Source: an uncultured Pelagibacteraceae bacterium
GTDB lineage: Bacteria; Pseudomonadota; Alphaproteobacteria; Pelagibacterales; Pelagibacteraceae
Direction of reading: 5' to 3'
Length of the DNA: 64,000 nucleotides
Assembly (NCBI GenBank): GCA_902583635.1
Contig: CACHWJ010000004.1
Coordinates: 21,643-85,642, forward strand
The notes beneath the pieces were generated by a model. That model made no database searches. It was not told the DNA's origin and worked only from the letters and a program-made list of their open reading frames with translations. Made by a program: the position numbers and the translations under genes. Below are positions 15,184 to 63,653 of this stretch, piece after piece (positions within the stretch are counted from its first letter, which is position 1; the number at the start of each line of letters is the position of its first letter).

Positions 15184-15297
15184 TTTTTTCCCCTCGATTA
15201 TTAATATTAATTTTAAAGTATGTTCCGATTTAAAGGTATAGTCAACTCGTTTTCAGTATAATATGGTCACAATAAAAATAATTATAAAGCATTGATC

Positions 15298-20961: not shown

Positions 20962-20986
20962 GTCATAAATAAAAGAAGGGTAAAAT

Positions 20987-45262: not shown

Positions 45263-46117
45263 TTATCTATTTATTCCTCTTAATCTCTCAGATCTTCTTC
45301 TTAACAATTCTGCTGTGACTAAAATTAAAGTAGATAAAATAATTAAACATGTTGCAACTGCGAGAATAGTTGGACTTAGCTGCTCTCTTAAGCCTGTCCA
45401 CATTTGAACTGGAATAGTTGTATTCTCCAATCCTGCCAAAAATAATACAACAACAACTTCATCAAATGATGTAACAAACGCAAACAATCCTCCTGAAATT
45501 ACACCTGGAAGTATTAGAGGTAATGTAATTTTCATAAATGTATTAAATGGGTTGCTCCCTAAACTTGAGGCTGCTCGAGTTACACTATGATCAAAACCCG
45601 AAAGCGTTGCAGTAACTGTTATTACAACAAATGGAGTACCCAATATAATATGTGCCATAACTATTCCTGTATGTGTTGCAGCTAAACCAACTTTTGCCAT
45701 AAAAAAGAAAATAGCCACACCAGATATAATTAATGGAACAATCATTGGTGAGATTAAAACTGCCATAATCAAACCTTTATATGGCATATGTCTACTACTT
45801 AGACCTAAAGCAGCAAGTGTACCTAAAATAATTGATCCAATGGTTGCAAATATTGCAATTATAAAACTATTCTTAGCAGCTAGCCCCCATGGATTTTTTG
45901 TTCCATAAACCATTTCGTGATACCATCTAAATGAGAAAGCTTCAGGATCAAGTCTTTTCATTCCTTCAGAAAAAACCAAAAACTCTTCTGCATTAAATGA
46001 TAAAGGAAAAATTACAAATAAAGGTGCAATTAAAAAGAAAAACACAAAGGTGCAAATAGCAATATAAAAATAATGCCAAATTCTATATCGTGTTTCAGTA
46101 TAACTTGGTAATGCCAT
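45263..46117 (-). CDS. ABC transporter permease, spermidine/putrescine type (PotC-like)
   Basis: ALGLSSRHMPYKGL, EAA-like RAASSLGSNPFNTFMKITLPLILPGVISGGLFAFVTSFDE. Confidence 0.9.
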   Translation of the reverse strand: MALPSYTETRYRIWHYFYIAICTFVFFFLIAPLFVIFPLSFNAEEFLVFSEGMKRLDPEAFSFRWYHEMVYGTKNPWGLAAKNSFIIAIFATIGSIILGTLAALGLSSRHMPYKGLIMAVLISPMIVPLIISGVAIFFFMAKVGLAATHTGIVMAHIILGTPFVVITVTATLSGFDHSVTRAASSLGSNPFNTFMKITLPLILPGVISGGLFAFVTSFDEVVVVLFLAGLENTTIPVQMWTGLREQLSPTILAVATCLIILSTLILVTAELLRRRSERLRGINR

Positions 46118-46119
46118 AA

Positions 46120-47382
46120 TTAACCTAACTTAATATTATCAACTCCTACTAATTTGTTATAAATCCAATAAATTACTAAAACTCCTGATAACAACATTAA
46201 ACCCATTGCAGATGCAAAACTCCAATCCAATGTGGTTTTCATATGATATGCAATTTGATTACTTATCAGTGTTCCTGAAGCTCCTCCGACTAATGCTGGA
46301 GTAATATAATAACCAATTGCTAAAATAAATACTAATAAACATCCCGCACCAATACCTGGGATTGTTAACGGAAAGTATACTTTCCAAAATGCAACAAATG
46401 GAGTTCCACCTAAGGATTTACCTGCTCTCATTAAACTTGGGGATATTGTTTTCATAACACTGTAAAGCGGAAGAACCATGAATGGCAATAATATTTGAGT
46501 CATTGCAACATAGGTTCCAACTTTATTGTACATCATTTCTGGCCTGTTATCGTCTGCAACAAGACCAATCATTACAAAGAAATCATTTACTACTCCTTGT
46601 TGTTGTAGCAAAATCATCCAGCTAGCAGTTCTAACCAATAAAGATGTCCAAAAAGGTAATAGAACACATATCATTAAGAGATTACTGTACTTCATGGGTA
46701 ATGTTGCAAGTAGGTGAGCTATTGGATAACCCATCAAAAAACAAAAAATAGTTACAAACAATGCTATTTCTAAGGTTCTTAGCCAAAGTATTCTATGTAT
46801 TCGTCTATCTTCATCTACTTGTGCAATACTTCCGTCCGCCGCAAAATACATATCCATACCTTTTAAATATTTTGCCATAGTGTATGGAGGAGCGGTTCGT
46901 TTAATCGCTTGCCAATATTCTACATCTCTCCATCTTTTATGAACCTTCATTATTTGTTCTTTGATGCTTTGACTCTCATCAATTTTATTTCTTTTAATTT
47001 GTCTCATTAATTTTTTAGTAATGGAATTAAAACCATTTTTTTCTTTATTTAATCTTTGACCAAGTTTTCCTTGTGTTTGGTTTTCAATCAAAACTTTATA
47101 GTCTGAATAAAAACCAGCAAAAACTTCTTCGGAAGGTAATTCTTTTCCGTCCCATTTTTCCATCGCTTTAAAGGTTTTAGGAAGCATATTAGTAATCATT
47201 TTATCGTCTACACTTCTTGTAAACATCTCACCAATTGGAAAAACATATGTAATGAATAAGAATATTAGTAATGGAGCAACAAGAAGAAACGCTTTAATTT
47301 TGTTCTTCTTTTCCGCTTTTTTTAGACTGACCTCTAGTGGAATTCCGTCAGTTGTTAAAATCTGTTTTGTTTCTGAGCTCAT
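46120..47382 (-). CDS. ABC transporter permease, spermidine/putrescine type (PotB-like)
   Basis: LLPFWTSLLVRTASWMILLQQQGVVND, RAGKSLGGTPFVAFWKVYFPLTIPGIGAGCLLVFI. Confidence 0.9.
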   Translation of the reverse strand: MSSETKQILTTDGIPLEVSLKKAEKKNKIKAFLLVAPLLIFLFITYVFPIGEMFTRSVDDKMITNMLPKTFKAMEKWDGKELPSEEVFAGFYSDYKVLIENQTQGKLGQRLNKEKNGFNSITKKLMRQIKRNKIDESQSIKEQIMKVHKRWRDVEYWQAIKRTAPPYTMAKYLKGMDMYFAADGSIAQVDEDRRIHRILWLRTLEIALFVTIFCFLMGYPIAHLLATLPMKYSNLLMICVLLPFWTSLLVRTASWMILLQQQGVVNDFFVMIGLVADDNRPEMMYNKVGTYVAMTQILLPFMVLPLYSVMKTISPSLMRAGKSLGGTPFVAFWKVYFPLTIPGIGAGCLLVFILAIGYYITPALVGGASGTLISNQIAYHMKTTLDWSFASAMGLMLLSGVLVIYWIYNKLVGVDNIKLG

Positions 47383-47412
47383 AAAAAAAGGGCGGTTAGT
47401 TAATAACCGCCC
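47383..47412 (-). terminator. Hairpin plus U-tract between the binding-protein and permease genes
   Basis: Minus strand: GGGCGGTTA-TTAAC-TAACCGCCC then TTTTTTT, ending immediately at the ATG of the permease (47382). Confidence 0.85.
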
Positions 47413-47449
47413 TAAATATATTATATTAATTCAGTGTTTAAAACTGAAA

Positions 47450-48568
47450 TTATAGGCCTGCTTTCATAGCTTCCCATTTTTCACCAATCTCTGTTCCATT
47501 ATCTGCCCAGTAGAAAGGATCAACTAAGAAATATTTCTTAGTATTTGCAGGAGCCGTTGGCATTTGTGGCATCATTTCAGTTTTACCATCTTTATACCAA
47601 GGCTCATTAGCTTTGATAATTTCTAAAGATGATAATCTGTATGGAGCATATGCAATGTACTTCGCACTACCTGCTAACATTTCAGTGTTAGTCATCATAG
47701 CTAAAGCTTTTTTAGCATTTGCTTCATCTGGTCCACCCTTAACTAATGCAAAATACTCATAGTCAAGACCTTGACCATGCCATACTTGCTTAATTGGAGC
47801 GCCTTCCCCAATTTCTGCATTAAAGAATCTTCCGTTCCAACCAGTTGCCATCACAACTTCACCAGCAACTAATAGTTCTGGTGGTTGAGCACCTGCAGAC
47901 CAGAATACACATCCACCATTTGGATCTGTACAAAGTTCTTTAATTTTATTCATTGCTCTGTCAACACCGCCTTCTTCTTCAAGCTTTCTGTAAAGTAATT
48001 CTCCACCTTTACCCATATTTACGCCGTCAGCAGCTAAAGCAATTTCTAGATTTGTAAGAGCACTTTTGTAGATTGCTCTTTTACCTGGAAATTTTTTAGT
48101 GTTAAAAAAGTCTTTGATAGTTTTTGGTTCTTTACCATCAAAAGCTCTTGTATCAAAAGCATAGTTCCAAGAGTACAGAATGTTTCCTACTGCACACTCA
48201 CTTGGCATTGGAGCGAAGAAGTCTTCACTTGCAGGTGTTCCATCTGGAGCTGCTGGGAAGTCTTTGTCAAAATCAAATTTAACAAATATACCTTCGTCGC
48301 AACCATTAATAGTATCAAATGCAAATACATCGATAATATCCCAAGTTATAGCACCCGCCTCTTTTTGTGCTTTGATCTCTGATAATCCTCCAGAATAGTC
48401 AACCCAGTTGATATCAACTCCTAGAGCTGCTGCTGTTGGATCACCATACCCTTGTTTTTGAGAGTCTGTATATGCTCCACCCCAAGATGCTACAGTAACA
48501 GCAAAGGCTGAAGAAGTTACAGATACAACAAAAGAAAGAGCAAGTAACAATTTACTTAATTTTCTCAT
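47450..48568 (-). CDS. Extracellular solute-binding protein, spermidine/putrescine type
   Basis: Signal MRKLSKLLLALSFVVSVTSSAFA then VTVASWGGAYTDSQKQGYGDPTAAALG; ATG at 48568 with SD-like CGGAGGAA preferred over the track start at 48643. Confidence 0.9.
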   Translation of the reverse strand: MRKLSKLLLALSFVVSVTSSAFAVTVASWGGAYTDSQKQGYGDPTAAALGVDINWVDYSGGLSEIKAQKEAGAITWDIIDVFAFDTINGCDEGIFVKFDFDKDFPAAPDGTPASEDFFAPMPSECAVGNILYSWNYAFDTRAFDGKEPKTIKDFFNTKKFPGKRAIYKSALTNLEIALAADGVNMGKGGELLYRKLEEEGGVDRAMNKIKELCTDPNGGCVFWSAGAQPPELLVAGEVVMATGWNGRFFNAEIGEGAPIKQVWHGQGLDYEYFALVKGGPDEANAKKALAMMTNTEMLAGSAKYIAYAPYRLSSLEIIKANEPWYKDGKTEMMPQMPTAPANTKKYFLVDPFYWADNGTEIGEKWEAMKAGL

Positions 48569-48690
48569 TATTCCTCCGTTTAAACGTTTAATATAAATTA
48601 ATTTATATAAACAAATTACACCAAAATGGTTATTAAGAGTCAACAGCTTATAATGTTCTTATTCTTGCTTATACTTTGTTAATTGATTGT

Positions 48691-49776
48691 TTATTTTGGG
48701 TCTAAAGCCCTAGCGTCATAACTATTCCAGCCAATTTTAATATCTTGGTTGACCTTAAGCTCTAAATTAGATGTGGAGTTTGGTACTTTTAAAATAAATT
48801 CTGGGTTACCTAATAAATTTACTCTTACCCTCGTATGATCTCCATGATAAATTACCTCTTCTATCTTACCACTAAACATATTATCCATTTTTTCACTTGG
48901 ATCGATTAAAGCTCTCTCTGGCCTTAGAGATACAGTTGTTTTCTCTCCTTTAGATTTTACAGAAATAGCGTTAGACAATATTTCAGCATTTGATAATTTT
49001 ACTTTACATTTATCACCTGAAATATCTGATACTTCACCATTAAATGTATTATTTTCACCTATAAATTCTGCTACAAACGAATTTACTGGTTTTTCATATA
49101 GCTCTGCTGGATTAGATAGTTGTTGAACTTTTCCATCATTAAACACAGCAATTCTATTTGACATTGTTAATGCCTCACTCTGATCGTGTGTAACATAAAC
49201 CACGGTTACCCCAATGCTTTCGTGAATATGTTTAATTTCATATTGCATACTCTCTCTTAAATTTTTATCCAAAGCTCCTAAAGGTTCGTCCATCAAAACT
49301 ACCGCTGGATCAAAAACTAAAGCTCTAGCTACAGCTACCCTTTGTTGTTGTCCTCCTGATAGTTGTCCTGGCATCCTTGTTTCAAATCCATTAAGTGAGA
49401 CCATAGACAAAGCTTTATCAACTTTTTTATCAATTTCATCTTTTTCAATTTTTCTTACTCTTAAAGGGAAAGCTAGATTTTCATAAACAGTCATATGTGG
49501 AAATAGTGCATAATTTTGGAAAACCATTCCAATCCCTCTTTTGTGAGGTGGTATGTTAGAAATTATATTTCCGTCTAATAAAATCTCTCCGTTTGTAGGG
49601 GTTTCAAAACCAGCGAGCATCATCAAACAAGTTGTTTTGCCAGATCCAGAGGGACCAAGCATGGTAATGAATTCACCCTCAGCAATATCTAATTGAAGAT
49701 CTTTAACAACTAAAACTTTACCATCATAGCTTTTATCAACTTTATCAAATTTAACGAATTCTGGATTTTTAGACAT
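48691..49776 (-). CDS. ABC transporter ATP-binding protein, spermidine/putrescine type (PotA-like)
   Basis: MLGPSGSGKTTCLMMLAGFETPTNGEI, LSGGQQQRVAVARALVFDPAVVLMDEPLGALDKNLRE, C-terminal TOBE-like domain. Confidence 0.94.
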   Translation of the reverse strand: MSKNPEFVKFDKVDKSYDGKVLVVKDLQLDIAEGEFITMLGPSGSGKTTCLMMLAGFETPTNGEILLDGNIISNIPPHKRGIGMVFQNYALFPHMTVYENLAFPLRVRKIEKDEIDKKVDKALSMVSLNGFETRMPGQLSGGQQQRVAVARALVFDPAVVLMDEPLGALDKNLRESMQYEIKHIHESIGVTVVYVTHDQSEALTMSNRIAVFNDGKVQQLSNPAELYEKPVNSFVAEFIGENNTFNGEVSDISGDKCKVKLSNAEILSNAISVKSKGEKTTVSLRPERALIDPSEKMDNMFSGKIEEVIYHGDHTRVRVNLLGNPEFILKVPNSTSNLELKVNQDIKIGWNSYDARALDPK

Positions 49777-49821: not shown

Positions 49822-50991
49822 TTAACTCTTAATATGAAGTTCTTTTGGGAAATTACAGAATAATTCAGAACCATTCTCAGTTACTCTAATTGCTTCAGAG
49901 GCTTCTACGCCCCAGTCACCAAATTGCATCACTGCTATCATATGAAAACAGACATTAGGCTCTAGAACGGTCATATCACCTTTGTATATATTTAGAGTAT
50001 GTTCGCCCCAATCTGGAGGATAGCCAATTCCAATTGAATATCCTGTTCTAGATTTTTTTTCTATTCCATATTTATCTAAAATTTTCCAAAATGCCTTAGC
50101 AACATCATCAGCAGTATTTCCAGGTTTGATAGCACTAATGCCAGAGTTCAAAGCCTCAATAGTTTTATTCATAGTATCAATTTTTGTTTGGTCAGGTTTT
50201 CCTAATAAAACTGTTCGAGCCATTGGAGCATGATATCTTTTATAAGTTCCTGATAACTCAATTATTGTAGCTTCCCCTTCAACAAATTTATCTTGGGATG
50301 CGGTCAAGTGAGATGCTGAAGTTCCTTTTCCTGTTGGTACTAAAGTTGCAATACTTGCATATTCTCCCCCAAATTCCTCAGTTCCATAAAATAATGATTT
50401 TTGAATTTCTCCAACTGCATCACACTGCCTTACACCAGGATTAATTACTTCCATTGCAGTTTTCATTCCTTTTTCAGAAATTTTTGCAGCAGATTTCATA
50501 TAAGTTATTTCAGCGTCTGATTTTACCAGTCTTGCCCAATTGACCAGACGATCACAATCTTTTATTTTAGCGTTAGGTAGACCTAATTTAATTTTTTCAT
50601 AGCAAAATGCTGTGAAATAATGTGCATCCATCTCTACACCAATTGATAGTTTGTCCCACTTTCTCTCTTTAATAATGTTAACTAAGTAATCATAAGGATG
50701 TTTTGGCCAGGTATGAATATAAGACTCATCATAAGCTATTATGTTTTCATTTTTTAAATAAGTTTTTAAGTAAGCTCCCCCTGCATCTTGAGCTCTTACA
50801 AAGCACAGTGGTTCTTCTGAATTAACATGTACAATAGCGCACTGTGCATAATAAAACGACCAAGCATCATAACCTGTTAAATAATTAAGGTTATTGGTGT
50901 CATGAGATATTAAAAGTTCAATGCCTTTGTCTTGCATCATGTATTGAACTTTCTTTAGTCTCTGTTTGTATTCTTCTTTTGTAAAATACAT
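49822..50991 (-). CDS. M24 Xaa-Pro peptidase family hydrolase, ectoine hydrolase (DoeA/EutD)-like
   Basis: LNYLTGYDAWSFYYAQCAIVHVNSEEPLCFVRAQDAGG, IGIGYPPDWGEHTLNIYKGD; creatinase/M24 fold resembling DoeA. Confidence 0.8.
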   Translation of the reverse strand: MYFTKEEYKQRLKKVQYMMQDKGIELLISHDTNNLNYLTGYDAWSFYYAQCAIVHVNSEEPLCFVRAQDAGGAYLKTYLKNENIIAYDESYIHTWPKHPYDYLVNIIKERKWDKLSIGVEMDAHYFTAFCYEKIKLGLPNAKIKDCDRLVNWARLVKSDAEITYMKSAAKISEKGMKTAMEVINPGVRQCDAVGEIQKSLFYGTEEFGGEYASIATLVPTGKGTSASHLTASQDKFVEGEATIIELSGTYKRYHAPMARTVLLGKPDQTKIDTMNKTIEALNSGISAIKPGNTADDVAKAFWKILDKYGIEKKSRTGYSIGIGYPPDWGEHTLNIYKGDMTVLEPNVCFHMIAVMQFGDWGVEASEAIRVTENGSELFCNFPKELHIKS

Positions 50992-51737
50992 TAATTTATT
51001 TGGAATAATTTACCAAATCCCTCTACTGAGTTATTTTTATTTATTTTAACAAGGGTATCCCAAATTAATGCCTGGTTGCTAGACAATACTGCAGTATTTA
51101 ATTTTTTTTCTAATTTATCTATAATGGGTAAAACTGGAAGAGCTGTACACGAAACAAACAGGGCATCAGCATTATTTAATTCAATGTTAGATAATACTTC
51201 ATACAAATAATTTTGATCAACTTTACCAATATCAAGATCAGACTCGATATCAAAATATGCATTAGATGTAATATCAAAACCCTCACTTTTAAAATACTCC
51301 AAAACCTCATCATTTAATTTCTTACTATAAGGTGTAAATAAACATATTTTATTAATATTCATTTTTTTTAATGCTGTAATTGCTGCTGTACTTGGTGTGG
51401 TAACATCTGCTTTTGGTTTTGCTGCCTTTACTTTTTTTTCAATTGATGAATGTCCAGCAGCAATAGTTCCTGAGGTACAACCATAAACTACACAATCTAG
51501 ATCCTGATCTGGTAAAATATCTTTTGTAGCTTCTGTAACCTTTTCTGACATTTTAATTAGGTTTTCCTTTGTTAATGGATTATAACTTTCAATTCGATTT
51601 ACAAAAAAATCAATATCTTTATCTTTAATTATGTTTATAAAATCCTTTTCAATCATTAAGTCGCTTGCAAGTGCTATCAAGCCGACTCTTGGATTTGATT
51701 TATTTACAAATTTAGGATCTATTTTTATTGAATTCAT
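50991..51737 (-). CDS. Asp/Glu racemase / maleate isomerase (EutA-like) family protein
   Basis: PRVGLIALASDLMIEKDF, CVVYGCTSGTIAAGHSSIEK, VTTPSTAAITALKKMNINKICLFTPY, ADALFVSCTALPVLPII. Confidence 0.82.
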   Translation of the reverse strand: MNSIKIDPKFVNKSNPRVGLIALASDLMIEKDFINIIKDKDIDFFVNRIESYNPLTKENLIKMSEKVTEATKDILPDQDLDCVVYGCTSGTIAAGHSSIEKKVKAAKPKADVTTPSTAAITALKKMNINKICLFTPYSKKLNDEVLEYFKSEGFDITSNAYFDIESDLDIGKVDQNYLYEVLSNIELNNADALFVSCTALPVLPIIDKLEKKLNTAVLSSNQALIWDTLVKINKNNSVEGFGKLFQIN

Positions 51738-51798
51738 ATTTTAAAAGGTGAATATATCAGAAGTTCTTTAATAATCATTAATATTAAAAAATAACGGC

Positions 51799-52665
51799 AT
51801 GAACATAAAAGACACCTTTGTTGCATCTTTAGTTCCTATCTTTTTAGGTTTTGGTTTCGTTATTGCAAAGCCTGCATTTGAATCTTTTCCACCAGTTTTA
51901 TTGATGGGATTACGATTTATGTTTGCTGCATCTATTTTGATTTGGTGGTTTCCAATACCTAGAGGCTATTTAAAAAAAATATTTATAGCATCCTTCATAG
52001 CAAATACTTTGCAATATAGTATAACCTACTCTGGCTTAAATTTAATTGACGCCTCAGCTGCAGTTCTTCTTGTTCAAACAGAGGTTCCATTTGGGGTTAT
52101 ATTTGCCTATTTAATGCTTAAAGAAAAACCAACGATAAGAGCGTTGATAGGTATGAGTATCGCTTTTATTGGTGTTTATATTTTAACAGGATCTCCTAAT
52201 TTAGATGGAAAGTTTATTGGTATTGGTCTTACTATCATAGGTTCAGCAACTTGGGCGCTTGGCCAGGTTTTGGTTAAACCATTGAGTAAAGAAATTAATC
52301 CATTGGCTTTGGTTGCGTGGTTAGCATTATTTTCAGCACCTATTTTAATTGTTTTTTCCTCAATATTTGACGGAAATACAATTAATTATTTAAGCAATGC
52401 TAAATTTGAACATTGGATTATTGCGATTTATATCGGTTTTATAATGCAGCCAATTACTTATGGATGCTTCTATTATGTTTTAAAAAATAATCCTTTATAC
52501 AAAGTACTTCCAATTGTAACTATGGGTATTCCACCAACAGGATTGTTGGCAGCTATTTTTCTACTTGGAGAAAAACCAACTCAAGAATTATTTATCGGTG
52601 GAGCAATAATTATAATTGGGGTAATTTTAATTGTTTTTACAAAAAATAAAAAAGAAGAGAATTAA
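51799..52665 (+). CDS. EamA/DMT family transporter
   Basis: Ten hydrophobic segments; VLLMGLRFMFAASILIWW, AAVLLVQTEVPFGVIFAYLMLKEKPTIRALIG. Confidence 0.9.
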   Translation: MNIKDTFVASLVPIFLGFGFVIAKPAFESFPPVLLMGLRFMFAASILIWWFPIPRGYLKKIFIASFIANTLQYSITYSGLNLIDASAAVLLVQTEVPFGVIFAYLMLKEKPTIRALIGMSIAFIGVYILTGSPNLDGKFIGIGLTIIGSATWALGQVLVKPLSKEINPLALVAWLALFSAPILIVFSSIFDGNTINYLSNAKFEHWIIAIYIGFIMQPITYGCFYYVLKNNPLYKVLPIVTMGIPPTGLLAAIFLLGEKPTQELFIGGAIIIIGVILIVFTKNKKEEN

Positions 52666-52681
52666 TTTAAAGTATTTTTAA

Positions 52682-53143
52682 ATGTTATTAAAAAGTTTTT
52701 CAGTTAAACAAGAGTGGGTTGACTATAACAATCATATGAATATGGCTTACTATGTTCTAATATTTGATCAAGCTTTGGAGGTTGCACTTGAAAATTTTAA
52801 AATGGGAGAAAGTTCAGCTAAAGATTTAAATAGAAGTACTATGGTAGTTGAAACAAACACTAAATATTTACGAGAAGTAAAGCAAGGTGAGGAAATAGAT
52901 ATTCATATGACTTATTTTGATCATGACAAGAAAAGGCTTCATATAAAAATGGAGATGATTGAAAAAAGTGAAAAAAAAATATCAGCAAACATAGAGTGGA
53001 TATCTCTATATATAGATTTAAAACAGAGAAAAGTCACCGAATTTGAGGAAGAAAAGTTAAAATTAATGGATAAGTTTATTGAGGATAATAAAACTAAATT
53101 CGTATCTGATGATCTTCTTTTTTCCTCAAAATTAAAGAAATAA
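52682..53143 (+). CDS. Thioesterase (hotdog-fold) family protein
   Basis: VKQEWVDYNNHMNMAYYVLIFDQALE is a 4HBT-type active-site motif. Confidence 0.8.
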   Translation: MLLKSFSVKQEWVDYNNHMNMAYYVLIFDQALEVALENFKMGESSAKDLNRSTMVVETNTKYLREVKQGEEIDIHMTYFDHDKKRLHIKMEMIEKSEKKISANIEWISLYIDLKQRKVTEFEEEKLKLMDKFIEDNKTKFVSDDLLFSSKLKK

Positions 53144-53183
53144 TTAAATATTACAAATTCTAATAATTTGATATAGGTGCCCA

Positions 53184-54140
53184 ATGAGCACCAATAATAA
53201 TCCTAAAGGTATTATTTTAATTGTTACTGCAATGACATTTTTTTCAATGCAGGATGCATTGATTAAATTTATTTATGAACAAGCAGCACTTTATGAAATT
53301 TTTTTTGGAAGATATTTTGTTGCAGCCATTTTACTGTTTGGATATATAAAATTTAGAAATCAGAAAGTTTCACTAAAAACTTACTATCCTTCTTTAACAG
53401 TACTAAGAGTTTTACTACACTTTATTGCGTTTTCTGCTTTTTTTATCTCATTAACTTACATGCCACTAGCAACTGCTAATGCACTTTTTTTTTCCTCTCC
53501 ATTTTTTGTGTCAATTTTTGCAAAAGTATTTTTAAAAGAATTTATTGGAATTAGAAGATGGTCTGCAATTATATTTGGCTTTATTGGAGTTTATATAGTT
53601 TTAAATCCTGATTTTTCTAACTTTGAATATAAAAATTTATTACCAGTTTTCTCTGCTTTTTTTTATGCAGCTTCTATGACTATTACAAAATATACCTCTG
53701 ATAAAGACGATGTTAATACACAATTATTTTATTTTTATCTTATTGCTATAGCCTTGTGTGTAATAATTTTTATTTTTATGGGGAATGGCCAATTTAATAA
53801 TTCGAATTTCGACTCAACAACTCAGTTTATTTTTAGAGAATGGTTTTCAAATATTGAGTATACTTGGAAGTTTATTTTATTTTTTGGTTTTGTTGCTTCT
53901 ATTGCATTTGTATGCATTTTTTCTGCTTATATTGTAGCGTCTCCATCCGTGGTATCACTTTTTGAATATTCTTTAATTATTATGTCTATGATACCAGGGT
54001 TTTTATTGTTCAATGAAATTCCATCTTTAAGAACATTTTTAGGTGTTGCTTGTATTATAGCTGCTGGGATTTATATATATGTAAGGGAAAAAGCTAGAGA
54101 TCAATATATTGCCACAAAAACACCTTTAAGAAGATCATAA
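53184..54140 (+). CDS. EamA/DMT family transporter
   Basis: GIILIVTAMTFFSMQDALIKFIYEQAALYEIFFGRYFVAAILL; ATANALFFSSPFFVSIFAKVFLKEFIG. Confidence 0.9.
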   Translation: MSTNNNPKGIILIVTAMTFFSMQDALIKFIYEQAALYEIFFGRYFVAAILLFGYIKFRNQKVSLKTYYPSLTVLRVLLHFIAFSAFFISLTYMPLATANALFFSSPFFVSIFAKVFLKEFIGIRRWSAIIFGFIGVYIVLNPDFSNFEYKNLLPVFSAFFYAASMTITKYTSDKDDVNTQLFYFYLIAIALCVIIFIFMGNGQFNNSNFDSTTQFIFREWFSNIEYTWKFILFFGFVASIAFVCIFSAYIVASPSVVSLFEYSLIIMSMIPGFLLFNEIPSLRTFLGVACIIAAGIYIYVREKARDQYIATKTPLRRS

Positions 54141-54268
54141 AATTTTATTGAAACTCTACTTCACTAATAATAAGGTTCAAGTATAGAACGATACATAACT
54201 CGTCGTTAAATTCATATTTACGAAAGTGGGATCAATCGTCTTAGATTTGATTATTTAAGGAGGTTCGA

Positions 54269-55435
54269 ATGAAGTTTGGATATTTTTGCAACACCACTAA
54301 CTGGGATCACAAACCCTATAAACAATTACTAGATGAAACAAAAGAGATAACAACTTATTGTGATAAAAATAATTGGGACTCTATTTGGTATACTGAGCAT
54401 CATTTTAATCATGAAGGTATGGAGTCTTGCACTAATCCATTAATGATGGGTGTTGATGCAGCTGCTAGAACTAAACAAATAAAAATTGGACAGGCATGCA
54501 ATGTTATTACATTTCATAATCCTTTAAGACTAGCTGAAGATATTGCTTTGTTAGATCAATTATCTAATGGTAGAGCTCTAATTGGTATTGGAAGAGGAAT
54601 TTATGGAAGAGAGGCAATGAATTTAAATAAAGAAGCTGATCTTAAGGATCAAGCAAAAAATTTTAGACTGTTTGAAGAATCTCTTACAATAATGAAAAAA
54701 GCATGGACTGAAGAATTTTTTAGTCATAAAGGTGAATTCTATACTTATCCATCACCAAATTTTGTCTGGCAACACGATATGAGTCCTCCAAACAAAGAAT
54801 TTGTAGATATTGAAACAAACGAGATGAAAAAAATAAGTGTGGTTCCAAAACCTAAACAAAGCCCACACCCACCAATTTGGCAAGTAGTAGATGGCGCGAG
54901 ATCAATTGAATGGGCTGCACAAAATGGTTTGAACACTATTATGTGGATACCTACTGTTAAAGCTCTCAAAAAAAGATTTGAAATATTCAGAGATGCAAAG
55001 TCAAAAACAGAGAACAGAGAAGTTCCCCTAGGCGAAGGTATATCTTTAGTAAGAGATATGTTTGTTGCAGAAACAATGGAAGAAGCTGAAAAATTAGCAG
55101 GTGAACATATTATAAATTATATGAGATGGGTTTGTCATTGGCGAGGATTGGGAAATCATATGGACCCAGGTGAAGAATTGCCAGAAACAAAACATAAATT
55201 AGATTTATTAAATTATGAATTTTTACATAAAAGAAATTTATTGTTTGGTACTCCTGAGTATGTTGTTAATAAAATTAATGAACTTAAATCAGAGTTGAAT
55301 TTGCAAAATCTCCAAGTTTGGTCTAACTTTCCTGGAATAGACCATGAAGCTTGTATGAGGAGTATTAAATTGTTTAATGACGAAGTAATTCCAAAAATAA
55401 ATTTAGATAGCTCTAATATAGAAAAAGCAAGTTAA
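54269..55435 (+). CDS. LLM-class flavin-dependent oxidoreductase (bacterial luciferase-like)
   Basis: DSIWYTEHHFNHEGMESCTNPLMM, IKIGQACNVITFHNPLRLAEDIALLDQLSNGRALIGIGRGI; strong SD AAGGAGGT. Confidence 0.93.
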   Translation: MKFGYFCNTTNWDHKPYKQLLDETKEITTYCDKNNWDSIWYTEHHFNHEGMESCTNPLMMGVDAAARTKQIKIGQACNVITFHNPLRLAEDIALLDQLSNGRALIGIGRGIYGREAMNLNKEADLKDQAKNFRLFEESLTIMKKAWTEEFFSHKGEFYTYPSPNFVWQHDMSPPNKEFVDIETNEMKKISVVPKPKQSPHPPIWQVVDGARSIEWAAQNGLNTIMWIPTVKALKKRFEIFRDAKSKTENREVPLGEGISLVRDMFVAETMEEAEKLAGEHIINYMRWVCHWRGLGNHMDPGEELPETKHKLDLLNYEFLHKRNLLFGTPEYVVNKINELKSELNLQNLQVWSNFPGIDHEACMRSIKLFNDEVIPKINLDSSNIEKAS

Positions 55436-56019
55436 TGAATTTAGAAATAAGAAAGTTTACAAAGTTTGTAGACAAAACTTATATTGAAGGTGGAAAAAAA
55501 GCTAAGGAACCAGTTTTATTAGTTTCTGTAGCTGCAGTTTTTAAAAATCCATGGCACGGGCAAGGTTTTGTTGAAGACCTTAGACCAACTATTTTAGATT
55601 TAGCACCTAAACTCGGGGATATGCTAGTGCCTGAATTAATTAAAGAGATGGGTTCACCTGATAAAATACTTGCATACGGAAAAGCTGGGGTTGTCGGGTT
55701 AAACGGAGAGATAGAGCATGCATCAGCATTTATACATACATTAAGATTTGGGAATAAATTTAGAGATGCTGTAGGCGGTACATCTTATTTAAGTTTTACA
55801 AATACAAGAGGACCGGCTGGTTCAAAAATATCAATTCCAATGATGCACAAAACAGACTCTGGTTTAAGACCATACTATTTAACTCATGAGTTCACAATTC
55901 ACGACGCACCATTTGATGACGAAGTTGTAATAGCTATAGGAGGTGCTTCAAGTGGAAGAGCTCATGCAAGAACAGGTGATAGATATCAAGATATGAAAGA
56001 GATGGGCATTAAAAATTAA
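55435..56019 (+). CDS. Amino acid synthesis (DUF1185) family protein
   Basis: MNLEIRKFTKFVDKTYIEGGKKAKEPVLLVSVAAVFKNPWHGQGFVEDLRPTILDLAPKLGDMLVPELI...; YGKAGVVGLNGEIEHASAFIHTLRFG. Confidence 0.75.
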   Translation: MNLEIRKFTKFVDKTYIEGGKKAKEPVLLVSVAAVFKNPWHGQGFVEDLRPTILDLAPKLGDMLVPELIKEMGSPDKILAYGKAGVVGLNGEIEHASAFIHTLRFGNKFRDAVGGTSYLSFTNTRGPAGSKISIPMMHKTDSGLRPYYLTHEFTIHDAPFDDEVVIAIGGASSGRAHARTGDRYQDMKEMGIKN

Positions 56020-56022
56020 AAA

Positions 56023-56808
56023 ATGCCTTATAATTTTGATAAAAGTCAAAATCATTATTATTTTAACAATAAAAATTCGGTTCCATTAATTTTTATACAC
56101 GGACTTGGATTAAATCAATCAATGTGGAAACCCCAAATTGATTTTTTTAAAAATAACTCTTTTGTAACATATGATCTTTTAGGACACGGAAAGACCCCTT
56201 TTGGTGAAAATATACTAACAATGAGAAAATTTGCTAGCCAATTATTAGTTTTGATTGAGAATTTGAAAATAGATAAATTTCATTTAATTGGTTTTTCTAT
56301 TGGAGCATTAGTTGCAATTGAGTTTGCTACAAACTATGAAAAATATTTAAATTCTTTGACTTTAATTTCTACAACTTACAAAAGGTCAAACAATGAAAGG
56401 CAAAAAGTAATTGATAGAGTAAATTTAGCAAAAAAAAATATGCCTATTTCCCAAATGGCAATGAAAAGATGGTTTTCTGACGACTATCTTAAAAAAAATC
56501 CTGATCTATATGAAGAATTCCTAATAACTCTCAACAAAGAGGGAGTTGACCAGGAGAATTTTATTAAAGCTTACGAATTATTTGCAAATTATAGAGATAG
56601 CCCAGAAAAAGTAAAAAAAATAAAAACTAACACCTTAATAATTGCAGGTTCAGAGGATACAGGGTCTACTCCAAATATGTCTAAAAATTTAAATAAAGAT
56701 ATTCAAAATTCGCGATATTTAGAAATTAAAAATGGTAAACACTTCACCACTATTGAATATGCAGATGAAGTAAATAATGCAATAATGAAACATTTAAATA
56801 ATGCCTGA
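56023..56808 (+). CDS. Alpha/beta hydrolase
   Basis: PLIFIHGLGLNQSMWKPQ, LIGFSIGALVAIEFA nucleophile elbow (S), IIAGSEDTGS, NGKHFTTIE. Confidence 0.92.
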   Translation: MPYNFDKSQNHYYFNNKNSVPLIFIHGLGLNQSMWKPQIDFFKNNSFVTYDLLGHGKTPFGENILTMRKFASQLLVLIENLKIDKFHLIGFSIGALVAIEFATNYEKYLNSLTLISTTYKRSNNERQKVIDRVNLAKKNMPISQMAMKRWFSDDYLKKNPDLYEEFLITLNKEGVDQENFIKAYELFANYRDSPEKVKKIKTNTLIIAGSEDTGSTPNMSKNLNKDIQNSRYLEIKNGKHFTTIEYADEVNNAIMKHLNNA

Positions 56809-58282
56809 ACTTAAAAAATATAAAATGTTTATAAATGGAGAGTGGGTAGACTCTGAAAGCAAAAAAACTTTTGAGACTTTGAACCCTGAAAACAATGAAC
56901 CATGGGCAATCGTACCTGAAGCAAGCGCAAAGGATGTTGACAGAGCCGTTAAAGCTGCACAAAAAGCTTTTGAAGGTGAATGGCCAAAATTACTTCCAAG
57001 AGATAGAGCAAAATTTTTAAGAGCAATTGCTGATCAGTTAAGAAAAAATGCTGAAATGCTGGGTGAGATAGAAACAATTGATACAGGAAAACTTTTTAGA
57101 GAGACAAAACAGCAAGCAGTTTATATTGCTGAATACTATGATTATTATGCAGGATTAGCCGATAAAGTTGAGGGCACGGTTCTTCCAATAGACAAACCTA
57201 ATGTGCAAGCGATAACGACAAGAATACCAATCGGTGTTGTTGCTGCAATCATTCCATGGAACTCTCAAATGTTTTTAACAGCAACTAAATTAGCACCAGC
57301 TCTAGCAATGGGAAATACTGTAGTTATAAAATCTTCAGAGCTTGCACCTGCAGTCTTATTTGAATTTGCAAAGCTTGTTGAAAAAACTGGAATACCTAAA
57401 GGAGTAGTTAATATCATTACAGGATTTGGTGATCCGTGTGGTAAAACTTTAACAACACATAATCTTGTTGAAAAAATTGCTTTTACCGGAGGACCAGAAA
57501 CTGCAAGACGTATCATTAAAAATTCAGCAGAAAATCTCTCAGAGGTAAGTTTAGAGCTTGGTGGAAAAAGTCCAGTAGCTGTATTTGACGATGCCGAACA
57601 AGAAAATGCAATTAACGGAATAACTGCTGGAATATTTGGTGCGAGTGGACAAAGTTGTATTGCAGGTTCAAGACTTTATATCCAAAAAGGAATTTATAAT
57701 GAATTTCTAGATAAACTTTCTAGCACAGCATCCAAAATAAAAATAGGAGCTCCAATGGATCTAGATACAGAGATGGGTCCTTTAAGTAATTTTAAACAAT
57801 TAGAAACAATTGAAAAAAATATAAAAGATACAATAGATCAAGGTGGAAAGATTAAATGTGGTGGTAAAAGAGATTCTTTTTCAAATAAAGGTTATTATTT
57901 CCCTCCAACAATTATTGAATGCGATAATCATAATCTGCCTACTGCAGAAAATGAATTATTTGGGCCTGTATTGTCAGTAATGAAATTTGATACTGAGGAT
58001 GAAGTAATTAGTAAAATGAACGATAATCAATATGGTTTATCATCTGGCGTTTACACAAGTAATTTATCCAGAGGGATGCGTGTTTCCAAAGCAATTAGAG
58101 CTGGAATTACTTTTGTAAATACCTATAGACTAATTTCACCTTCGGCTCCATTTGGAGGTATAAAAGATAGTGGTTACGGCAAAGAAGCTGGGATAGATTC
58201 TATTAAAGATTACACAAGAGTAAAAACGACCTGGTTTTATACATCTGATGAACCGTCATTAGATCCATTCTCAATTAGATAA
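56801..58282 (+). CDS. NAD(P)-dependent aldehyde dehydrogenase
   Basis: IPWNSQMFLTATKLAPALAMGNTVVIK, AFTGGPETARRI, LELGGKSPVAVF, GASGQSCIAGSR. Overlaps the hydrolase by 8 nt. Confidence 0.94.
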   Translation: MPELKKYKMFINGEWVDSESKKTFETLNPENNEPWAIVPEASAKDVDRAVKAAQKAFEGEWPKLLPRDRAKFLRAIADQLRKNAEMLGEIETIDTGKLFRETKQQAVYIAEYYDYYAGLADKVEGTVLPIDKPNVQAITTRIPIGVVAAIIPWNSQMFLTATKLAPALAMGNTVVIKSSELAPAVLFEFAKLVEKTGIPKGVVNIITGFGDPCGKTLTTHNLVEKIAFTGGPETARRIIKNSAENLSEVSLELGGKSPVAVFDDAEQENAINGITAGIFGASGQSCIAGSRLYIQKGIYNEFLDKLSSTASKIKIGAPMDLDTEMGPLSNFKQLETIEKNIKDTIDQGGKIKCGGKRDSFSNKGYYFPPTIIECDNHNLPTAENELFGPVLSVMKFDTEDEVISKMNDNQYGLSSGVYTSNLSRGMRVSKAIRAGITFVNTYRLISPSAPFGGIKDSGYGKEAGIDSIKDYTRVKTTWFYTSDEPSLDPFSIR

Positions 58283-58393
58283 ATCATTTTCTTGCGATAA
58301 ACTGCTTTAAAATATGATAATTTAGTCATTGAATATTTAAATTATTCATAATTAAATTAGCTTTTATAAATTGTTAACAATTAAAGAGGGAAT

Positions 58394-59620
58394 ATGGCAA
58401 AAAATAAAGGATTACTAATTGCAGTTGCTGTCGTAGTAGTTGCTGTAATTATATATTTTTCTACTCAACAATCAAAAGTTTCTAAAACTGGAGTTGGTGG
58501 AGAAATTAAAATGGGAATAATATTAGGTTTTACAGGTCCAATTGAATCTTTAACACCTGCTATGGCCGATTCAGCAGAACTAGCTTTTAAAGAAGCATCA
58601 GACTCTGGTTCATTATTGGGTGGAGCTACAATTTCACCAATGAGAGCAGACTCAACATGTGTTGACTCAGCAGCAGCAACGGCTGCAGCAGAAGGATTAA
58701 TTTCAGGTGGTGTGGCTGCTATTATGGGAGCTGATTGTTCTGGTGTAACGGGTGCTATTGCAACTAATGTTGCAGTTCCAAACGGTGTTGTGATGATTTC
58801 TCCGTCTGCAACATCTCCTGGTTTGACAACACTAGATGATAAAGGTTTCTTTTTTAGAACAGCACCTTCTGATGCAAGAGGTGGTCAAATCTTAGCTGAT
58901 ATTACAAAAGATAGAGGTATTAACAGTGTAGCAATTACTTATACAAATAATGACTACGGAAAAGGTTTAGCAGATGTTTATGAAGCTGCAGTAAAAGCAC
59001 ATGGAATAACAGTTACAACTGTTACAGCTCATGAAGATGGAAAAGCTGATTACTCATCTGAAGCTGCAACACTTGCATCAGCTGGAGGCGATGCTTTAAC
59101 TGTTATTGGTTATCTTGATCAAGGAGGAAAAGGAGTAATTCAAGCATCATTAGATGCAGGATCCTTTGACACATTCATTATGTCAGATGGTATGATTGGT
59201 CAATCTATAGTTGATGCTATTGGTGCAGATTTAGATAAATCTTTTGGATCTTTACCAGGTTCAACTGGAAAAGGTGCAGGAGTTTTTGCAGAAGTAGCAA
59301 AAACCGCTGGAATAGATTCATCTGGACCATACACCGGAGAGTCATATGATGCTGCTGCTTTGATTGTTTTAGCAATGCAAGCAGGTAATTCTGCAGATCG
59401 AGCTTCTATTGCAAAAAATGTAATGGATGTTGCTAATGCTCCTGGAACAAAAATTTATCCAGGTGAACTTAAAAAAGGATTAGATTTACTTGCTGAAGGT
59501 AAAAAAGTTAATTACGAAGGTGCCACAGGAGTAACTTTTACGGATGTTGGTGAAGCAGAGGGATCTTTTTTAGAAAAAGAAATCAGTGGTGGAAAATTTG
59601 AAACTGCTAAACAGAGATAG
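58394..59620 (+). CDS. Branched-chain-amino-acid-type ABC transporter substrate-binding protein (LivK-like)
   Basis: N-terminal hydrophobic segment; IKMGIILGFTGPIESLTPAMADSAELAFKEA; GVVMISPSATSPGLTTLDDKGFFFRTAPSDARGGQILADI. Confidence 0.9.
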   Translation: MAKNKGLLIAVAVVVVAVIIYFSTQQSKVSKTGVGGEIKMGIILGFTGPIESLTPAMADSAELAFKEASDSGSLLGGATISPMRADSTCVDSAAATAAAEGLISGGVAAIMGADCSGVTGAIATNVAVPNGVVMISPSATSPGLTTLDDKGFFFRTAPSDARGGQILADITKDRGINSVAITYTNNDYGKGLADVYEAAVKAHGITVTTVTAHEDGKADYSSEAATLASAGGDALTVIGYLDQGGKGVIQASLDAGSFDTFIMSDGMIGQSIVDAIGADLDKSFGSLPGSTGKGAGVFAEVAKTAGIDSSGPYTGESYDAAALIVLAMQAGNSADRASIAKNVMDVANAPGTKIYPGELKKGLDLLAEGKKVNYEGATGVTFTDVGEAEGSFLEKEISGGKFETAKQR

Positions 59621-59778: not shown

Positions 59779-61149
59779 TTACTTTATGTCTATTTTTTCA
59801 GGAAGTATACCTTTAGGTCTGTACCTCATAATTAATAATAGCCCTAAACCCATCATTAAAAATCTAAAATAAGGAACACTCTCAATTAAATGAACTTTAA
59901 GAGAATTCGTGGCTGGAATGCCAACTGTAAAAAAGTTTATTAAAAATAAAGCTATTGGAGCAGACTCAATCCATAAAAACCAAACTGCAAACCCTCCCAA
60001 TATAGCTCCAAAATTATTTCCACTTCCCCCAACAATAACCATAACCCATATCAAAAAAGTATATCTCATAGGTCTGTAACTTCCTGGGGTAAACAATCCA
60101 TCTTGTGTGACTAACATTGCTCCTGCAATTCCGACAATTGCTGAACCTAAAATAAAAATTAATAAATGCTGTTTAACAACATTTTTTCCCATAGCATTAG
60201 CTGCTTCCTCATTATCTCTAATGGCTCTCATCATCCTACCCCATGGAGAGTAAAGAGCCTTTTGTGTAAGGATTAATAAAATAATTACTACTATTAAAAA
60301 TAATCCTGAATAGCAAAGTTTTACAAAGACCGAAGAGCCTTCAATTACAAGTTGGTTTAATGTAGCTTGTCGATCAGATAAATTAGAGATTAATTCTAAT
60401 TTTCCAGAGTTAAATTTTTCAACCAAATTTATAAACCAATCTGTTGTTTGAAGATCTACTTCATAAGGAGCAGGCCTTTTAAGTCCAATTACATTTTTAA
60501 CACCTCTAGTTAACCAGTCCTCATGTTTTATAATTGCTATGACAATTTCTGAAATTAAAAGAGTAGCAATCGCTAAATAGTCTGCTCTCAAGCCTAAGGC
60601 TACTTTTCCAACAATAAACGCCAAACCTCCTGCAAAAAAAGCACCAACAATCCATGAAAAAATAATTGGTAATCCAAAACCACCTAAAAAACCAGTCTTG
60701 GCTGGATTAACTGCTTCAATAGCTTCTATACCTGGCTCTGCTGAAAATCTTATTAATAAAATTCCTGAGATAATTATTACAGCAATACTGTATGTTCTTA
60801 TTTTGGATTTATTAAATCTTTTTAAAATAAATCTTATTATTAATACCATTGCTATGATAAGCCAGAGAGACATCAGTATATCAAAACCTCCAGCGCTCCA
60901 TGCTTCTTGAACTGGATCAACAGAAATTAAAACTGCAGCTAGTCCTCCTAAAGCTGTATATCCCATGATTCCAAAATTTATTAATCCCGCATAGCCCCAT
61001 TGAATATTTGCGCCCATAGTCATAACTGCAGATATTAAACAGAGGTTAAAGATAGATAATGCAATATTCCAAGATTGAAAAATTCCAACCAATATTATTA
61101 AGGCCATCATAATACTGTATGCTGCAATTACATTTAAATTCTTTCTCAC
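59779..61149 (-). CDS. Branched-chain-type ABC transporter permease (LivM-like)
   Basis: ANIQWGYAGLINFGIMGYTALGG; SPWGRMMRAIRDNEEAANAMGKNVVKQHLLIFILGSAIVGIAGAM. Confidence 0.92.
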   Translation of the reverse strand: MRKNLNVIAAYSIMMALIILVGIFQSWNIALSIFNLCLISAVMTMGANIQWGYAGLINFGIMGYTALGGLAAVLISVDPVQEAWSAGGFDILMSLWLIIAMVLIIRFILKRFNKSKIRTYSIAVIIISGILLIRFSAEPGIEAIEAVNPAKTGFLGGFGLPIIFSWIVGAFFAGGLAFIVGKVALGLRADYLAIATLLISEIVIAIIKHEDWLTRGVKNVIGLKRPAPYEVDLQTTDWFINLVEKFNSGKLELISNLSDRQATLNQLVIEGSSVFVKLCYSGLFLIVVIILLILTQKALYSPWGRMMRAIRDNEEAANAMGKNVVKQHLLIFILGSAIVGIAGAMLVTQDGLFTPGSYRPMRYTFLIWVMVIVGGSGNNFGAILGGFAVWFLWIESAPIALFLINFFTVGIPATNSLKVHLIESVPYFRFLMMGLGLLLIMRYRPKGILPEKIDIK

Positions 61150-62156
61150 AATACTTTTCCTTTGAATATTCCTGATGGTCTATAAAGTAATACTATTACA
61201 AGTATCGAAAATGAAACCGCAAATTTATAATCAGTTGATAAAAGCTGAACTAAACTTTCCGGTTCCATGCTTTCAGGCAGTATGTACATAAAAAACTTTT
61301 TATAGGCATAGGTTAAAAATATCTCAGAAAAAGCAATGACATACCCTCCTAAAAATGCACCAAATGGATTTCCAATTCCACCTACAATGGCAGCTGCAAA
61401 TATAGGAAGCATATTATTAAAATAAGTGAACGGCTTGAAGCTTTTATCTAAACCGTATAAAGCCCCTCCAATAGTTGCTAATATTCCAGCGATTATCCAA
61501 GTGATCATTACAATTTTTTGAGGATCAATTCCTGATAGTAAAGCTAAGTCTTCATTATCTGAATAAGCTTTCATACTTTTACCTGTTTTAGTTTTATTTA
61601 AAAACCAAAATAGTAAAGATACTAGTATAATTGTAACCAGCACTGTGATTACCTGTGTTGATTTCAAAGCAAGCCCCTCATTAAATCCAGTTATCTCTTT
61701 GAATTCTCTAGCTTTAATTATAAATTTTTCGCCATCAAAAAATCTTTGATCTGAAGGCCCAATAATAATTCTAACTACTGCTTGTGTAACAAACATTACT
61801 CCAATACTAACCATAGCTAATTGAACAGGAGGACTTTTGTTTGTTCTATAATATTTGAAAACGAACTTATCTATACTTAGCATATAAAGGATCATAAAAA
61901 AAATTCCAAATGGAATTGCTAATAAAGCTGTAGGCAAAACTCCTAAAGAAATCCCAAGTGATTGAAAATACCAAGTAAATAGAATTGTAACCATTGTTCC
62001 AAAAGACATCATGTCTCCAGTTGCAAAATTAGCAAATCTTAAAATTCCATAAATTAGTGTAACAAATATTGCCCCTAAGGCTAATTGTGAACCATATGTT
62101 AAGGCCGGAATAAAAATATAATTTAGTAAAAGAATTAACGCATTTAGAAAGTCCAT
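61146..62156 (-). CDS. Branched-chain-type ABC transporter permease (LivH-like)
   Basis: LALGAIFVTLIYGILRFANFATGDMMSFGT; KAYSDNEDLALLSGIDPQKIVMITWIIAGILATIGGALYG. Confidence 0.92.
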   Translation of the reverse strand: MDFLNALILLLNYIFIPALTYGSQLALGAIFVTLIYGILRFANFATGDMMSFGTMVTILFTWYFQSLGISLGVLPTALLAIPFGIFFMILYMLSIDKFVFKYYRTNKSPPVQLAMVSIGVMFVTQAVVRIIIGPSDQRFFDGEKFIIKAREFKEITGFNEGLALKSTQVITVLVTIILVSLLFWFLNKTKTGKSMKAYSDNEDLALLSGIDPQKIVMITWIIAGILATIGGALYGLDKSFKPFTYFNNMLPIFAAAIVGGIGNPFGAFLGGYVIAFSEIFLTYAYKKFFMYILPESMEPESLVQLLSTDYKFAVSFSILVIVLLYRPSGIFKGKVL

Positions 62157-62157
62157 A

Positions 62158-62865
62158 TCAACCTCCTAGAAAAGAGCTTCTAACTCTTGAGTCGTTTAAT
62201 AATTCTTTTCCAGTTCCTGAATAACGATTTTCTCCAGTTACTAAAACATATCCCCTATCAGATATACTTAAAGCTTGTTTGGCATTTTGCTCAACCATTA
62301 AGATTGCAACATTAGTTTTTTTAACTTTGACAATATGATCAAAAAGCTCATCCATAACTATAGGTGAAACACCTGCAGTTGGTTCATCTAACATCAAAAC
62401 TGTTGGTTTAATCATTAAAGCTCTTCCTAATGCAACTTGTTGTCTTTGTCCGCCAGATAATTCTCCAACCATTTGATATCTTTTTTCTCTTAAAACAGGA
62501 AACAATTCATAAATTTCATCAATTATATTTTTTATTTCATTACTTAAAAGAAAAGCTCCCATTTCTAAATTTTCTTCAACAGTCATTCCTGAGAAAACGT
62601 TTTTAGTTTGTGGCACAAATGAAATTCCTTCTTTAACTCTATCTTGCGGGGAGAGTTTTGATATATCTTTACCATCTATTTTTACTGCACCAGATTTTAG
62701 ATTTAGTAAACCAAGCATCGCTTTCATAGCTGTGGACTTCCCGGCTCCATTTGGACCTAGAATAGATACTATTTCTCCTTTATTTACGTCTACTGAACAG
62801 GAATTAATAATATCTGGACCATTTCCATAGCCTCCAGTCATTTTTATTCCTTCAAAGTATGCCAT
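62158..62865 (-). CDS. Branched-chain-type ABC transporter ATPase (LivF-like)
   Basis: ILGPNGAGKSTAMKAMLGLLNLKSGAV, ELSGGQRQQVALGRALMIKPTVLMLDEPTAGVSPIVMDELF. Confidence 0.93.
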   Translation of the reverse strand: MAYFEGIKMTGGYGNGPDIINSCSVDVNKGEIVSILGPNGAGKSTAMKAMLGLLNLKSGAVKIDGKDISKLSPQDRVKEGISFVPQTKNVFSGMTVEENLEMGAFLLSNEIKNIIDEIYELFPVLREKRYQMVGELSGGQRQQVALGRALMIKPTVLMLDEPTAGVSPIVMDELFDHIVKVKKTNVAILMVEQNAKQALSISDRGYVLVTGENRYSGTGKELLNDSRVRSSFLGG

Positions 62866-63653
62866 TAATTATTTTCCCTTAATTTTGACCCTCTACCAAG
62901 ATAACTCTCAATAACTTTTTCATCTTTTTTTGCTTCCTCAACTGAACCTTCAAATAAAACAGATCCCTCAGCCATCACTATTACTGGATCACATAATCTT
63001 CCAATAAAGTCCATATCGTGCTCTATCATACAAAATGTATAACCTTTTTCTTTATTCAACTTTTCAATAGCTGTACCTAAATCTTTGAGCAAAGTTCTGT
63101 TAACACCAGCTCCAACTTCATCCAATAAAACTAATTTTGCTTCAACCATCATAGTTCTTCCAAGTTCTAGTAATTTTTTCTGTCCTCCAGAAAGATTTCC
63201 AGCAAGTTCATTGGATAAATGTTGAAGATTTAAAAATTCAACCACTTCTTTTGCTTTTTCCTTAATTATATTTTCTTCTTTAGCTACCAAACCCGGTTTA
63301 AATAATGCTGTAGTTAACTTTTCACCTGATTGATTTCCGGGAACCATCATTAAATTTTCTAAAACAGATAAATTAGAAAATTCATGTGCAATCTGGAATG
63401 TTCTGAGTAATCCTTTTGAAAATAATTCAAATGAAGGTACATTTGTTATATTTTCGCTATCAAAAATTACATCACCACTTGAAGATTTTAAATTTCCTGC
63501 AATCAAATTAAATAATGTTGTCTTACCAGATCCATTAGGTCCAATAATTCCTGTAATAGTACCTCTTGAAACTTTTAAAGAGCAATCTGAAACAGCCGCT
63601 AATCCACCAAAGTATTTTGATAAATTTTTAATTTCTAAAATATTTTCTGACAT
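62865..63653 (-). CDS. Branched-chain-type ABC transporter ATPase (LivG-like)
   Basis: IIGPNGSGKTTLFNLIAGNLKSSSGDVIFD, LSGGQKKLLELGRTMMVEAKLVLLDEVGAGVNRTLL. Confidence 0.93.
   Translation of the reverse strand: MSENILEIKNLSKYFGGLAAVSDCSLKVSRGTITGIIGPNGSGKTTLFNLIAGNLKSSSGDVIFDSENITNVPSFELFSKGLLRTFQIAHEFSNLSVLENLMMVPGNQSGEKLTTALFKPGLVAKEENIIKEKAKEVVEFLNLQHLSNELAGNLSGGQKKLLELGRTMMVEAKLVLLDEVGAGVNRTLLKDLGTAIEKLNKEKGYTFCMIEHDMDFIGRLCDPVIVMAEGSVLFEGSVEEAKKDEKVIESYLGRGSKLRENN

Follow-up and report, generated by a model that had tools for sequence, protein, structure and literature searches.

The trigonelline (Tgn) system, which opens the ring of plant-type pyridine compounds, is the closest described counterpart of the gene cluster analyzed here. 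In the annotated cluster of Acinetobacter sp. PK01 (NZ_CP094644.1), which was used as the Tgn reference in place of A. baylyi's own proteins, the gene order is GntR – DUF1185 – alpha/beta hydrolase – tgnA reductase – tgnB luciferase-like (LLM-class) flavin monooxygenase – tgnC aldehyde dehydrogenase (ALDH), and the record labels tgnA, tgnB, and tgnC as the trigonelline monooxygenase components and the dehydrogenase that follows. According to a study of a different pathway, TgnF of A. baylyi is a DUF1185 homologue that stimulates TgnE (PMC7913881). We analyzed a 64,000-nucleotide stretch (the window) from an uncultured Pelagibacteraceae bacterium of the SAR11 group (GCA_902583635.1, contig CACHWJ010000004.1, positions 21,643 to 85,642; genome of 984 kb, 82% complete), in which four plus-strand genes encode an LLM (54269–55435), a DUF1185/AA_synth protein (55435–56019), an alpha/beta hydrolase (56023–56808), and a TgnC-like ALDH (56801–58282). 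No heterotroph of the surface ocean is more abundant than SAR11. In this group the quartet forms a genuine cassette, conserved but patchily distributed, and what is new about it is that a variant of the Tgn kind carries a swapped oxygenase. An earlier, sequence-only reading of the window had proposed an undescribed pathway at this locus. The trigonelline system, already described, is built from these very families, which takes away part of this claim; the oxygenase differs, which leaves a variant rather than an exact copy.

The four open reading frames lie where the sequence-only reading had placed them, on one strand and tightly packed, with a 1-nt overlap between the LLM and DUF1185 genes, a 3-nt gap between the DUF1185 and hydrolase genes, and an 8-nt overlap between the hydrolase and ALDH genes. 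The LLM (388 aa) matched Pfam family Bac_luciferase (PF00296, 2.8e-42), the DUF1185 protein (194 aa) PF06684 (2.1e-64), the hydrolase (261 aa) Abhydrolase_1 (PF00561, 5.7e-20), and the ALDH (493 aa) Aldedh (PF00171, 6.8e-160). Among the matches listed, none of the quartet proteins scored above the cut-off of any NCBIfam model. Residues Glu43-His44-His45 of the LLM, corresponding to the Glu-His-His motif of luciferase-type oxygenases, are invariant, as are Cys286, Glu252, and Asn154 of the ALDH, and the Ser92-Asp212-His240 triad of the hydrolase is intact. The AlphaFold model of the LLM (pLDDT 84) had RslO1, bacterial luciferases, and 3,6-diketocamphane monooxygenase as its top fold matches; as predicted, the fold fits an FMN oxygenase. 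A scan for promoters and terminators returned signals at chance level only.

Conservation was evaluated on loci drawn from the best 80 of 502 matches, a sample that leans to near relatives. The order LLM – DUF1185 – hydrolase – ALDH was identical in all 75 SAR11 loci containing all four genes, which makes the quartet a conserved unit. The tight spacing was also kept across these loci, apart from the insertion of a gene for a thiamine pyrophosphate (TPP)-dependent enzyme described below. Between divergent copies, the dN and dS values were 0.055 and 1.33 for the LLM, 0.062 and 1.73 for DUF1185, 0.145 and 1.26 for the ALDH, and 0.398 and 1.21 for the hydrolase, which is the fastest-changing member of the quartet. 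These substitution rates show purifying selection on all four members, weakest on the hydrolase. Because the order is constant in 75 loci and dN is far below dS, the association of the four genes goes beyond chance. The quartet is nevertheless an accessory element of patchy distribution in SAR11: the LLM is present in 61 of 297 Pelagibacteraceae genomes, and in about a third (42/127) of those that are at least 90% complete.

Two irregular sets of copies were seen. Hydrolase identity to the window was 93–95% in close relatives versus 46% in three mosaic loci (L016–L018) in which the other members were nearly unchanged (98% for the LLM, which was captured only in L017 and L018; 97–98% for DUF1185; 96% for the ALDH), a pattern that suggests a hydrolase swap by local recombination. 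The LLM copy at G414:C12:5331–6474 is broken by in-frame stops and may be either a pseudogene or an assembly error.

Compared with the PK01 cluster, the window ALDH was 52% identical to TgnC over 99% of its length, and the window DUF1185 protein was 55% identical to that of the tgn cluster. The hydrolases belong to the same superfamily and are weakly homologous (26% identity). The LLM was 25% identical to TgnB, the window cluster contains no reductase TgnA, no TgnE-type SSADH, and no GntR regulator, and the gene order differs. In phylogenetic trees, the window ALDH grouped with Tgn-type and Parasedimentitalea ALDHs, and not with the SSADH or Agrobacterium type (support 93/91), and the DUF1185 protein fell in a clade of 21 LLM-module DUF1185s (support 100/99), apart from the tandem type. 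The LLM lay in a separate deep clade of its tree, and orthology to TgnB was rejected on this ground together with the low identity. Because of this distance, ring opening would not be a function inherited by orthology. The quartet probably works like the Tgn system; we do not class it as one, since its LLM forms a separate clade, the cluster has no reductase, and none of family PF01613 was found in three complete quartet-bearing genomes. An alphaproteobacterium that bridges the two arrangements (G211) has the order flavin reductase – LLM – DUF1185 – hydrolase – ALDH, with 55%, 63%, and 52% identity to the window for the LLM, DUF1185 protein, and ALDH, respectively, and 60% identity of its ALDH to TgnC. 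Apart from G211 itself, its order yielded no relatives.

Operons with the order GntR – DUF1185 – hydrolase – flavin reductase – LLM – ALDH are found in rhizobia, Leisingera, Ruegeria, Chimaeribacter, and Acinetobacter. A second arrangement outside SAR11, in Agrobacterium, Mesorhizobium, and Thalassospira, was examined in three loci (L156, L153, and L188) and has the order flavin reductase – ALDH – LLM – hydrolase – carboxymuconolactone decarboxylase, with DUF1185 nearby. It draws on the same families, and its DUF1185 is 53–55% identical to that of the window, but its LLM and ALDH are only about 28% and 40% identical, and it has a reductase and a regulator of its own. The window LLM had no orthologue in 249 genomes of a Rhodobacteraceae-like family, f23 (best match 33%), whose label was inferred from the family's size and its close match to Leisingera and Ruegeria proteins. 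Conversely, no close relative of the rhizobial or roseobacter Tgn-type LLM turned up in the 297 SAR11 genomes, 12 of which contain only a distant second LLM (25–29%). This second LLM and an accompanying second hydrolase (LLM2 and ABH2; L179 14275–16086, L181 5417–8728, and L182 4109–5923) occur beside carnitine dehydrogenase and BKACE genes in L179, an OpuAC-type betaine ABC transporter in L181 and L182, and an ALDH in L181.

The sequence-only reading had likened the quartet to Rut pyrimidine utilization. A pathway of the Rut kind, with pyrimidines or cyclic amides supplied through the neighboring Liv transporter, would account for the pairing of an LLM oxygenase with an alpha/beta hydrolase, and RutD was among the weaker NCBIfam matches of the hydrolase. 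The match, however, reached 76.7 bits against a cut-off of 238.5, no RutA model was among the 25 LLM matches listed, RutB, RutC, and RutF partners are absent from the cluster, and the Liv genes are also found where the cassette is missing (see below). The Rut resemblance is thus not supported, and we consider such a pathway very improbable.

We tentatively favor, with slightly less than even confidence, a reading in which the quartet carries out oxidative ring opening of the Tgn type by means of an oxygenase that has been replaced, with homarine (N-methylpicolinate) as the most plausible substrate. The LLM would obtain reduced FMN from a reductase encoded elsewhere and insert oxygen into an N-methylated pyridinium betaine at a position adjacent to the nitrogen of the ring. 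The ring would then open to yield an N-formyl/N-methyl unsaturated aldehyde, which the TgnC-like ALDH would convert to the acid. Subsequently, the hydrolase would cut the N-formyl enamide, while the DUF1185 protein may aid a dehydrogenase step, by analogy with the role reported for TgnF. These reactions, the substrate, and the source of reduced flavin are our inference, and the ring-opening chemistry is carried over from the trigonelline pathway. If the substrate is homarine, the product might drain to N-methylglutamate, methylamine, or glutamate, an outflow that the C1 and methylamine genes of SAR11 could serve. The part of the sequence-only reading that made the quartet a catabolic pathway, with a flavin monooxygenase that opens or oxygenates the substrate and a hydrolase and ALDH that process the product, is supported, and the unit is conserved; the Rut resemblance and the import by Liv are not supported.

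The candidate substrates are N-methylated pyridine carboxylates. Homarine makes up as much as 3% of particulate carbon in the surface ocean, while trigonelline is present in ocean particles at pM levels (PMC8269262). The same study considered it improbable, on steric grounds, that TgnA/TgnB would accept homarine, and a homarine pathway would thus call for a different oxygenase. By analogy, a different oxygenase acting with the same downstream enzymes is what such a pathway might look like. Mgd has been reported to be active in homarine catabolism (PMC13390433), and the window carries soxB/mgd-type and methylamine genes (see below) that may be relevant here. The low concentration of trigonelline bears on another explanation, that trigonelline itself is degraded with the help of a convergent oxygenase. 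The ALDH, DUF1185, and hydrolase families are shared with the Tgn system and speak for such a route; but the oxygenase is the part that recognizes the ring, the LLM is not TgnB, and the cluster contains no TgnE-type SSADH. Degradation of trigonelline is therefore unlikely.

A further explanation would leave the chemistry of the preferred reading unchanged and make it already known, the quartet being the SAR11 version of a published homarine (hom) operon. This operon, reportedly described in Nature Microbiology in 2026 as homABCDER, is said to occur in both Rhodobacterales and SAR11. On the level of probable substrate class and habitat, rather than of gene lists, it agrees with the quartet, and the 2026 work may already cover the genes analyzed here. 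With no close relative of the Tgn-type LLM among the 297 SAR11 genomes, the quartet is where one would look first for such an operon in SAR11. Against this, the window LLM is without an orthologue in the 249 f23 genomes, and the LLM of a Rhodobacterales hom operon, if there is one, must be a different protein. We regard identity with the hom operon as less likely than not.

Several observations weigh against homarine ring opening by a Tgn-type module. The LLM shares just 25% identity with TgnB and belongs to a separate deep clade; neither a flavin reductase nor an SSADH gene is part of the cluster; and PF01613, the only reductase family searched, was found in none of three complete quartet-bearing genomes (the controls gave a signal in 13 of 14). 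Any argument from the neighborhood is one by association, in a region that is itself a gene-rich site of insertion. Finally, two additional enzymes that frequently accompany the quartet in other genomes have no obvious role in a Tgn-type pathway. A TPP-dependent enzyme is encoded between the LLM and DUF1185 genes in 58 of the 75 SAR11 loci, and in 57/76 loci the LLM is preceded by a gene for a 2OG-Fe(II) oxygenase. The best NCBIfam matches of the TPP enzyme were sulfoacetaldehyde acetyltransferase (Xsc) and acetolactate synthase (ALS), both below the cut-off. This second version of the module was seen in L179, L180, L147, L019, and about 58 SAR11 loci; in the window, by contrast, the LLM and DUF1185 genes overlap by 1 base and no TPP enzyme separates them. 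The LLM tree and the hydrolase tree, the latter with two hydrolase clades, divide largely by version. Neither the TPP enzyme nor the 2OG oxygenase was found elsewhere in the window's genome, in a search of an 82% complete assembly that was run without a positive control. A sulfonate pathway built from the LLM, the 2OG oxygenase, and the Xsc-like enzyme was set aside, since the window version is missing two of its three parts; we retain it merely as an idea for the second version.

These observations allow for another class of substrate, for example a quaternary amine without an aromatic ring or a different cyclic compound, on which the LLM would act as a Baeyer-Villiger or dealkylating enzyme, leaving the products to the ALDH and hydrolase. 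The different subfamily of the LLM, whose best fold matches are luciferases and a Baeyer-Villiger enzyme of type II, is consistent with such a role, as is the addition of the 2OG-Fe(II) oxygenase and the Xsc/ALS-like TPP enzyme in the second version. In other genomes, moreover, the neighbors of the module include a choline dehydrogenase-family GMC protein, a gamma-butyrobetaine-dioxygenase-like protein, carnitine dehydrogenase, GbcA/CntA-like Rieske oxygenases, and a choline-type ABC ATPase. Neighbors of this kind, which often act on quaternary amines, also fit a betaine substrate as in the preferred reading and are no proof of it. In contrast, the TgnC-like ALDH and TgnF-like DUF1185 protein point to Tgn-type intermediates, and we consider a different substrate class rather unlikely. 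A broader form of the homarine proposal is that a new SAR11 oxygenase subfamily, set on a Tgn-type ALDH–hydrolase–DUF1185 chassis, opens the ring of homarine or of a related N-heterocyclic betaine abundant in the sea, and that the commoner version, with the 2OG-Fe(II) oxygenase and Xsc-like TPP enzyme, would be a further undescribed route; we put this forward as a doubtful but conceivable extension. If homarine-type ring opening by the quartet is true, a large and under-studied pool of carbon and nitrogen would be tied to specific SAR11 lineages, the quartet would yield a marker gene for this reaction, and a pathway would have been re-aimed by the exchange of its oxygenase only.

The quartet is part of a longer accessory cassette, EamA1 – 4HBT – EamA2 – LLM – DUF1185 – hydrolase – ALDH (51740–58393, no strand assigned to the block as a whole), which lies between a eutA-like gene and the gene for a resident LivK-like binding protein (58394–59620, plus strand). 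The latter is convergent with livM-H-F-G (59779–63653, minus strand). In a relative that has no LLM (G493, locus L186), the eutA-like gene directly adjoins the binding protein gene and livMHFG at the same site, and in another (G297, locus L185) a single EamA gene is found between them. Given this empty and this near-empty site, the block from EamA1 to ALDH (about 51.74–58.39 kb) has been inserted as a cassette next to the resident Liv genes. The binding protein gene adjoins the ALDH gene in 66 of 75 loci; it also occurs without the LLM in G207, G297, G493, and many other genomes, and together with the empty sites this indicates that the adjacency reflects the insertion site and not necessarily function. 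The suggestion that the Liv system may import the substrate of the quartet finds no support in the same data, and Liv was ruled out as a dedicated importer. The EamA/DMT transporter EamA2 (53184–54140, plus strand, PF00892), absent from the sequence-only reading, is the transporter best linked to the module: in 70 of 76 loci its gene precedes that of the LLM at a distance of four genes or less.

Other genes of the region were also annotated. The best model for the 4HBT thioesterase of the cassette (52682–53143) was the C-terminal part of carnitine 3-dehydrogenase, and a relative of it is found in the carnitine-type cluster of L179/L180. DoeA- and EutA-like genes (49822–51737; ectoine family, both below the NCBIfam cut-offs) are divergent from the cassette, and an ABC transporter (45263–49776) is encoded beside them. 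At a distance from the cassette, the window contains a methylamine island (2571–27935) with genes for a trimethylamine monooxygenase (7656–8987, above the cut-off), a TMAO demethylase-like protein (15292–17637, just below the cut-off), and an ammonium transporter-like protein (24738–26138), as well as genes that we take to be GmaS/Mgs-like (19492–24194). The soxB-type gene of the island (2571–3827) is 41% identical to one located beside the PK01 tgn cluster. The tgn genes of PK01 adjoin a soxBDAG/mgd-like set (L187 2567–7724), accompanied by folD and purU, that would suit a homarine pathway too; homarine operons may be among those labeled "tgn".

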